Shown here: positions 2,216-3,754 of the stretch, in pieces
Layout: every line of letters starts with the position of its first letter
Numbering within the stretch: the stretch's first letter is position 1
From: Pseudomonas quebecensis
GTDB taxonomy: Bacteria; Pseudomonadota; Gammaproteobacteria; Pseudomonadales; Pseudomonadaceae
Assembly: GCF_026410085.1 (NCBI RefSeq)
Contig: NZ_CP112866.1
Span: forward strand, 5,393,001 to 5,457,000
Direction: 5' to 3'
Length of the DNA stretch: 64,000 nucleotides
Program-made: the position numbers and the translations under genes
The notes under the pieces: generated by a model
What the model saw: the letters and a program-made list of their open reading frames with translations, nothing else
Database searches by the model: none
Told to the model about the DNA's origin: nothing

Positions 2216-3754
2216 ATGCCGCCTGCGTCGCCGCCGTTGTCCTTCAACCCCGCCGGTATTGAGTTGGACCCTCGCCAGGGCCTGACACGCCAGCTCTACG
2301 ACGCCCTGCGCCAACGTGTGCTGGACGGACGCCTGGTGAGTGGCACGCGCCTGCCCGCCAGCCGCGACCTGGCGGCGGCCTTGTCGATTTCCCGCAACAG
2401 CGTGGTGCGGGCCTACGATCAGTTGTACGCCGAAGGCTTTATCGAAGCGCGCGTCGGAGACGGCACCTATGTCGCCCAATTACCGACGGTGAAAAAACTA
2501 TCCACAAAACCATCCACAGGGTTATCACCAGGCTTATCCCCAGCTTTATCCACAAATTGCGGAAATTCATCGGTTAATTCGAGCCTGAAAGTTATCCACA
2601 GCGCGGCGCTGGAGCGTTTGGAAACCCACCATTTGTCTCAACCGCCGGTGGGGCCGCCCAAGGCCTTTCGTGTCGGCGTGCCGGCCTTCGATCTGTTTCC
2701 GTTTGAGGTTTGGGCCAAGCTCAACGGGGCTTTCTGGCGCAGGCCCGACCTGGAGCAGCTGTGCTACGGCGACCCTGCCGGAGACGCTCGCCTGCGTGGG
2801 TTGATCGCCGCCTATCTGCGCAGTTCACGCGGCATGCAATGCACCGCTGAACAAATTGTGATCACCAGCGGCGCGCAACAGGCAATCAGCCTTTGTGCAC
2901 AGTTGCTGGTGGCGCCCGGCGACGGCGTGGCGGTGGAAAACCCGGGCTACCGCGCCGCCGGGCATGCGTTCGCCCTGGCCGGTGCGTGCCTGCATGGCGT
3001 CCCGGTTGATGAGGAGGGGATCGACTGTGGCGTGCTCAACACCCTGGCCGATTGCCGCTTGGCCTACGTTACGCCGTCGCACCAATACCCGTTGGGCGTG
3101 GTGATGAGCCTGGCGCGCCGCCTGGAGCTGCTGGCCTGGGCCGAACGCACCGGCGGCTGGATCATCGAAGACGACTACGATGGCGAGTACCGCTACAGCG
3201 GCGCACCGCTGTCGCCCCTGGCCGCGCTGGACCGCAGCGGGCGCGTGTTGTACGTGGGCACCTTCGGTAAAGTGGCGTTCCCGGCGCTGCGCCTGGGCTA
3301 CCTGGTGCTGCCGCCAGGCCTGGTAGAGGCCTTTTCCCGGCGTCGCGCCGTGGACATGCGCCACTCGGAAGTCAGCACGCAGGCGGTGATGGCCGAGTTC
3401 ATGGCGGCCGGGCACTTCCAGCGCCATATTCGACGTATGCGGCGTGCGGCATTGAGTCGGCGCAATGCGTTGCTCGCCGGTTGGCCGCGCGGGTTGCCCG
3501 GCGTCGGCCAATTGCCCGGCGTCGCCGCAGGGCTGCACATCACCGTGCGTGTCGACAACCTTGCCCGCGAGCAGCAATTGCTTGCACAGGCCCATGCCGT
3601 GGGCGTTGAGATCAATGGCTTGAGCAATTACTGGCTGGCACCCTCCACGCTGGCGCCGGACCAGGGCGCCGGCCTGGTGCTGGGCTTTGCCGCAGTGCCA
3701 GAGCCCGCTATCGCGCAGGCGCTGGAACGTTTACGCGAGGCCTGGCGGTGTTGA
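2216..3754 (+). CDS. MocR-type transcriptional regulator (GntR winged helix + aminotransferase-like domain)
   Basis: A 512-aa fusion. Residues about 15-85 form a GntR winged helix (LYDALRQRVLDG, GTRLPASRDLAAALSISRNSVVRAY). Residues about 150-510 are a fold-type-I aminotransferase domain with the PLP-binding lysine at about residue 352 (GTFGKVAFPALRLGY) and the IIEDDYDGEY motif. MocR proteins sense PLP or an aldimine and usually act on the divergently placed genes, here the paiB-GNAT-GNAT unit. The ATG at 2216 is taken because the family N-terminus starts there; upstream residues are not conserved-looking. The interdomain linker (residues 95-114) is a five-fold repeat of four residues, coded by DNA resembling a row of DnaA boxes. 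Confidence 0.9.
   Translation: MPPASPPLSFNPAGIELDPRQGLTRQLYDALRQRVLDGRLVSGTRLPASRDLAAALSISRNSVVRAYDQLYAEGFIEARVGDGTYVAQLPTVKKLSTKPSTGLSPGLSPALSTNCGNSSVNSSLKVIHSAALERLETHHLSQPPVGPPKAFRVGVPAFDLFPFEVWAKLNGAFWRRPDLEQLCYGDPAGDARLRGLIAAYLRSSRGMQCTAEQIVITSGAQQAISLCAQLLVAPGDGVAVENPGYRAAGHAFALAGACLHGVPVDEEGIDCGVLNTLADCRLAYVTPSHQYPLGVVMSLARRLELLAWAERTGGWIIEDDYDGEYRYSGAPLSPLAALDRSGRVLYVGTFGKVAFPALRLGYLVLPPGLVEAFSRRRAVDMRHSEVSTQAVMAEFMAAGHFQRHIRRMRRAALSRRNALLAGWPRGLPGVGQLPGVAAGLHITVRVDNLAREQQLLAQAHAVGVEINGLSNYWLAPSTLAPDQGAGLVLGFAAVPEPAIAQALERLREAWRC
2498..2600 (+). repeat. 12-bp tandem repeat array with DnaA-box-like 9-mers, inside the MocR gene
   Basis: Five 9-mers start exactly every 12 bp: CTATCCACA (2498), CCATCCACA (2510), TTATCACCA (2522), TTATCCCCA (2534) and TTATCCACA (2546). 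A sixth, TTATCCACA, follows at 2592 in another reading frame. The copies at 2546 and 2592 are identical to the consensus DnaA box. All six point the same way. The tandem part encodes the four-residue linker repeat of the MocR protein and uses the TTA leucine codon three times, which is rare in such GC-rich genomes. Confidence 0.75.

Follow-up and report, generated by a model that had tools for sequence, protein, structure and literature searches.

Six DnaA-box-like 9-mers in the interdomain linker DNA of a Pseudomonas mocR gene: a conserved array and candidate origin-proximal DnaA sink

To our knowledge, loci of the datA type have been described from few groups. DARS loci have a core of three boxes with a fixed layout and act by release of ADP. 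In the passages available from the papers cited here, datA of Escherichia coli is described as intergenic, with an essential IHF site and boxes 2, 3 and 7 (PMC10950094, PMC5742627), and as located more than 450 kb from oriC (PMC4451416); the IHF consensus is given as TAAnnnnTTGATW (PMC10950094) and DARS is intergenic in E. coli (PMC5742627). According to the same passages, box clusters outside oriC in Bacillus subtilis and Streptomyces coelicolor are said to repress untimely initiation (PMC5742627), those of Bacillus being intergenic (PMC4451416), and oriC of E. coli is filled cooperatively from strong sites, with a 45-bp gap next to R1 (PMC4451416). Boxes enriched near oriC were described in E. 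coli, and DnaA titration was proposed (Olivi et al. 2025, PMC12371093); that study used a relaxed motif in E. coli strains and mentioned a script for S. enterica, and the word 'Pseudomonas' is absent from its text. In the parts available of the genome papers of P. putida and strain UW4, TTATCCACA is mentioned for oriC only (PMC3596284, PMC3056050), and an excerpted review counts 12 boxes at the dnaA promoter of P. putida (PMC8203912). A report of a DnaA-box array within coding sequence in Pseudomonas was not found in the open-licence literature searched.

The window, that is, the whole stretch of 64 kb that was analysed, comprises positions 5,393,001-5,457,000 of a single-contig genome of 5.63 Mb. 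A first-pass annotation had reported in it six same-strand DnaA-box-like 9-mers within a MocR gene, five of them 12 bp apart and one at 2592. These positions were confirmed in the sequence, as were the perfect boxes at 2546 and 2592, the different reading frame of the latter and the three TTA leucine codons of the tandem part. The features, in window coordinates, are as follows.

2216..3754, + strand: host gene, ORF of a MocR-type regulator with an N-terminal GntR helix-turn-helix and a class I/II aminotransferase-like domain
2498..2506, + strand: box 1, CTATCCACA, one mismatch, read in frame 0
2510..2518, + strand: box 2, CCATCCACA, two mismatches, read in frame 0
2522..2530, + strand: box 3, TTATCACCA, two mismatches, the weakest and least kept unit, read in frame 0
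2534..2542, + strand: box 4, TTATCCCCA, one mismatch, read in frame 0
2546..2554, + strand: box 5, perfect TTATCCACA, read in frame 0
2555..2591, + strand: spacer between boxes 5 and 6, 37 bp, of constant length and variable sequence
2592..2600, + strand: box 6, perfect TTATCCACA, one frame off and read GTT ATC CAC A (VIH plus the next A)

The MocR-type assignment follows from the presence of both Pfam domains, GntR (residues 24-86) and Aminotran_1_2 (residues 184-421), in one ORF read from 2216, and the array is placed in the linker DNA between them. By this gene, the closest named relatives are Pseudomonas, with P. antarctica and P. extremorientalis showing 86% protein identity among the best 80 of 581 candidates. 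The array reads CTATCCACA-AAA-CCATCCACA-GGG-TTATCACCA-GGC-TTATCCCCA-GCT-TTATCCACA, followed by 37 bp and TTATCCACA. Boxes 1-5 have a 12-bp period (2498-2554) and encode LST-like repeats, and box 6 starts another 46 bp on; the six boxes span 103 bp, about 280 bp inside mocR and on the coding strand throughout. Boxes 5 and 6 are the sole exact TTATCCACA in the 64-kb window, in which 10 places match at one mismatch or fewer, against 5.1 expected. The spacer was 37 bp long in 53/53 ungapped orthologues.

In its sequence, the array qualifies as a chromosomal DnaA-box cluster: several boxes lie within about 100-300 bp away from oriC, and conservation is found at the DNA level, partly so at boxes 3 and 4 and with box 6 lost in one clade. 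Like datA of E. coli, it brings together strong DnaA boxes and weak ones at a site apart from oriC yet still on the origin's side of the chromosome; it differs in being coding, in having five of its boxes repeat on one strand with a period of exactly 12 bp and in lying 83 kb from dnaA. Two defining features of datA are missing, since datA is a non-coding locus with an IHF site and the array lies inside the MocR ORF. An IHF bend in the spacer was considered and rejected, as no conserved consensus was found among the 55 array-bearing sequences: the best scores, with WATCARNNNNTTR as IHF consensus, were 6/9 in 25/55, 7/9 in 27 and 8/9 in 3, similar to those of random gene windows. Since there is no conserved IHF site, datA-like hydrolysis is unsupported here. 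The constant distance between boxes 5 and 6 is suggestive of an ordered complex. A datA- or DARS-like catalytic platform, altering the nucleotide state of DnaA instead of acting as a passive sink, would agree with strong boxes that bracket weak ones at fixed spacing and with the fixed 37-bp gap before a further strong box, an arrangement on which an ordered oligomer of ATP-DnaA could form; we regard such a platform, however, as rather improbable, given the gap without conserved IHF consensus and the fact that, in the passages available, both datA and DARS of E. coli lie outside coding sequence and the former requires its IHF site (PMC10950094, PMC5742627). The clusters of Bacillus and Streptomyces are likewise outside oriC, and the mocR array differs from those of Bacillus by encoding protein. 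Nearest in function are datA, these clusters and the origin-proximal box density of E. coli.

With the oligomerisation arrays of oriC, the array shares same-strand boxes at close regular spacing and strong boxes beside weak ones, and differs in being coding and without dnaA/rpmH context; no unwinding element was identified (AT content only). The oriC boxes of this genome were located at 5313880-5314152, beside dnaA (domain IV mapped at 5,312,368-5,312,574). The array is not adjacent to dnaA: it lies 81 kb from the oriC boxes, and mocR and dnaA are separated by 82.6 kb. A second, ectopic replication origin is very improbable: box number and spacing rival those of oriC and the spacer has a higher AT content than the gene (56% vs 37%), but the true oriC, with four exact boxes, adjoins dnaA, and the array shows the differences from an origin given above.

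Conservation of the box letters was assessed in 71 aligned orthologues. The best 80 of 581 candidate loci were kept, 41 of which entered the alignment (L075-L116 without L115), and L117-L154 were left out as distant. The 55 array-bearing orthologues are all those ungapped across boxes 1-5 minus L113, a non-Pseudomonas sequence without the array that was removed by hand; having been chosen as ungapped, they lack indels in boxes 1-5 by construction, and this was unused as evidence. Box 5 was exactly TTATCCACA in 53/55 orthologues and in 53 of the 54 encoding LST there, whereas the codons used in other parts of these genes would lead one to expect 2.8e-4 exact boxes per LST. Box 1 was CTATCCACA in 36 orthologues, TTATCCACA in 8, ATATCCACA in 2 and other variants in 9. 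The terminal TCCACA of box 2 was present in 53/55, despite a first codon for V, L, P, I or S. Box 4 was mainly TTACCCACA (20), TTATCAACA (14) or TTATCCCCA (10), and box 3 showed 14 forms. All 40 orthologues encoding VIH had an exact box 6 (41/55 overall, not exact in 14/55); the residue that follows was S in 31, N in 3 and K, R and T in 2 each, the codons sharing just a first base A, which completes the box. The putida-type clade has lost box 6. Single mismatches were found in each usually perfect box of L076 and in box 5 of L089.

Box codons of the 55 orthologues were also unusual, with ACA for 97% of Thr (9.3% elsewhere), TTA for 67% of Leu (2.5% elsewhere) and solely TCC or TCA for Ser. Changes were counted on a tree of 52 sequences, from which L024, L033 and L035 were omitted and for whose construction the linker was not used. 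The six third positions of Ser and Thr codons in boxes 1, 2 and 5 changed 0, 2, 1, 0, 0 and 0 times (3 in total), whereas the 115 fourfold sites taken elsewhere in the gene as background averaged 16.3 changes each, and only three of them had two or fewer. In 100,000 draws of six background sites the total was never under 32. Spacer codons beside the boxes varied freely on this tree. When the 40-residue linker was recoded synonymously with the codon usage of the gene family, none of 20,000 recodings scored higher than 1.7, against 3.4 for the actual boxes, and none contained two exact boxes.

Boxes 1-5 being in frame and LST-like, and MocR linkers being variable in length and sequence, would fit a Ser/Thr repeat of the linker peptide, or a linker drifting by chance, in either case without DNA function. 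Codon choice, the out-of-frame box 6, the residue-independent conservation of box 2, the near absence of third-position change and the recoding result speak against this reading, which was rejected as scarcely credible; chance drift was the alternative offered by the first-pass annotation. The LST peptide was not found without the boxes in the 55 array-bearing orthologues or in 13 further loci, six weaker arrays included, so the counter-case named in that annotation was not encountered. In L086 (P. putida ASAD) peptide and boxes are gone together from an intact gene, and box-free orthologues carry a different, shorter linker. The annotation had also raised the question of whether boxes are kept where synonymous changes would destroy them; boxes 1, 2 and 5 are strongly kept in this way, as is box 6 where present, and boxes 3 and 4 only weakly. 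As judged from these sequences, selection on the box letters acts on the DNA, strongly for the former boxes and weakly at boxes 3 and 4. Box letters kept far beyond the needs of the protein indicate that this piece of the gene likely doubles as a DnaA-binding site, in support of the earlier proposal that the coding sequence conceals an element for DnaA titration or for regulation by DnaA.

Two further ideas were tried and rejected. A drifting minisatellite was discarded, since no LST array with another unit number was present among the 71 aligned sequences. A broken gene with kept boxes had only weak candidates: L033 may be an assembly error, L035 has an open frame and the stop of L028 is the ordinary terminal one. 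In L033 (G034, 95% complete), the GntR part and the remainder are in different frames. In L035 (G010), an in-frame insert, which we take to resemble a Pseudomonas REP element, lies between the GntR domain and the array, with the boxes kept.

The pattern TTATCCACA-N37-TTATCCACA was present in 180/298 genomes of the genus, with 0 matches listed for the reversed control; one genome (G149) has a second such place elsewhere among the matches listed. Boxes 1, 2 and 5 in register were found in 81/119 genomes, at one place each, and control matches were 0. Either pattern was positive in 91/119 genomes (hand-compiled). Among the 28/119 negative for both, 16 were searched for the gene and 13 loci were examined, of which six are weaker arrays keeping boxes and seven have short box-free linkers; the 'array-negative' class thus includes at least six genomes with variant arrays. 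A close mocR orthologue was not found in G058, G012 and G085, among the 16 genomes searched. Outgroup Pseudomonas are without the LST linker altogether, for which reason the array looks gained within the genus, and its loss in L086 together with the array-free outgroup species indicates that it is not essential to the genus.

By a 120-bp cluster score whose weights were our own choice, the array (3.4) is the tightest box cluster among the scored places of the chromosome, just above oriC (3.0), and the remaining places reached 2.4 at most. For this ranking, a region of 345 kb around oriC was scored together with 16 further loci, among which are all exact-box pairs within 120 bp seen in the genome; clusters of inexact boxes elsewhere would escape it. 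When longer stretches are considered, the array is surpassed in exact boxes by oriC, with four within about 270 bp, and by intergenic DNA at 212.5-213.1 kb, with five in about 520 bp. Two boxes spaced by 12 bp with one mismatch in total occur at a single other genomic place, 1139934.

Exact boxes numbered 139 genome-wide, against 17 for the reversed word, and 128/139 are in the origin half. Their density per Mb was 340 within 50 kb of oriC (counting its own four boxes), 70 at 50-100 kb, 13 at 100-250 kb, 36 at 250-500 kb and 51 at 0.5-1 Mb, then 15, 8 and 1.2 farther out. The profile is therefore non-monotonic (13 at 100-250 kb, 51 at 0.5-1 Mb), and the density of exact boxes falls about 280-fold from the zone within 50 kb of oriC to that beyond 2 Mb. 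A replichore-polar motif was rejected, with 67 boxes forward and 72 reverse and no polarity. Boxes near oriC (about 5314000; L040-L057) are mostly single, within genes and conserved between species; 29/39 lie within genes by a rough gene call, in DNA that is 93% coding. Outside oriC, 28/35 boxes were intact in G017, against 33.5% of background 9-mers, and 15/17 alignable boxes in G005, against 26.2%, both sets including the two MocR boxes. In contrast to the relaxed motif of the E. coli enrichment (PMC12371093, in the part available), the Pseudomonas boxes are of exact consensus and kept letter by letter between species. A protein other than DnaA reading the same 9-mer might be invoked, DnaA binding to the array itself being predicted from sequence; we give it hardly any credence, because TTATCCACA is the consensus of the genome's own oriC boxes and of DnaA boxes generally, and its field is centred on oriC.

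Over 119 genomes, with per-genome counts that are complete, the median number of exact boxes was 134 in array-positive ones (control 18) and 50.5 in the rest (control 11). Some array-free genomes are also box-rich, such as G063 with 127 exact boxes, which indicates that the field is independent of the array. G014 showed hardly any enrichment (32 exact boxes vs 24 control), and in G015 there was no exact box between 2.06 and 4.11 Mb among the matches listed. The distance from dnaA to mocR was 51-159 kb in 9/10 genomes allowing direct subtraction; in three further genomes the two genes lie on either side of the record start, and two genomes are without a close orthologue. In G029, mocR with its array (L014, G029:C1:4375067-4376587) is 1.34 Mb from dnaA, by rearrangement or relocation, which weakens the notion that the array must be near oriC.

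The main rival is a DnaA-regulated transcription of mocR, in which a roadblock about 280 bp inside the gene would tie expression of the regulator to the DnaA cycle. It would fit the location of the array within a transcribed gene, the placement of every box on the coding strand of that gene and the persistence of the array at mocR even far from dnaA (G029); the passages available describe a DnaA-box complex that blocks RNA polymerase at asnC of E. coli, and a limit on read-through set by DnaA box 2 of datA (PMC10950094). Nevertheless, six boxes exceed what a roadblock should need, and gene-specific control leaves unexplained the neighbouring origin-proximal boxes that are conserved in many unrelated genes, so that this rival is considered unlikely.

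With moderate confidence, the linker DNA of mocR is interpreted as a six-box DnaA-binding array under selection as DNA, likely serving as an origin-proximal DnaA sink soon after initiation. The DnaA of this genome has the usual DNA-binding domain IV, matching by sequence the solved structure 1j1v (presumably from E. coli), and the strong boxes should consequently be bound. DnaA would bind boxes 1, 2, 5 and 6 and would fill the weaker boxes 3 and 4 through cooperative contact, as expected from their close same-strand spacing by analogy with oriC of E. coli. At usual fork speeds we estimate that the array would be copied within a minute or two of initiation, and its duplication at that moment would double local DnaA demand just when re-initiation must be avoided. 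The bound complex may either only hold DnaA or also speed ATP hydrolysis as datA does. The LST-LST peptide would be a side effect of the DNA sequence, acceptable to the protein since linkers between domains can vary freely.

A broader proposal, possible but on the whole doubtful, is that Pseudomonas DnaA is controlled by an origin-centred field of gene-embedded consensus boxes, with the MocR array as master sink and protein-coding datA, its DnaA load being reset with each transcription of mocR, which would couple replication timing to one regulator gene. On the sink interpretation, selection for a replication signal would have written a peptide, the LST repeats, into a protein. The array could be erased by synonymous recoding with the host protein unchanged, and its role in initiation is thus directly testable; it offers a compact array conserved across much of the genus for DnaA titration, an old model short of clean tests.

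Other groupings of exact boxes were observed. The five boxes at L058:12536-13059 (G000:C1:212536-213059), on one strand in about 520 bp of intergenic DNA, adjoin a Rieske-type dioxygenase-like ORF, and further five-box groups were found among the matches listed in G015 (357751-358220, one box on the opposite strand) and G017 (4194738-4195406). A palindrome, TTATCCACA-N5-TGTGGATAA, is located at L065:826-848 (G000:C1:3319526-3319548), in the box-poor terminus half; it may be a hairpin or a paired site, and pairs with the same 14-bp offset also occur in G015, G017 and G078 among the matches listed. Inverted exact-box pairs with an offset of 35-36 bp are present at 405216-405260, 681701-681745 and 5046066-5046109 (G000:C1), and also in G017 among the matches listed.
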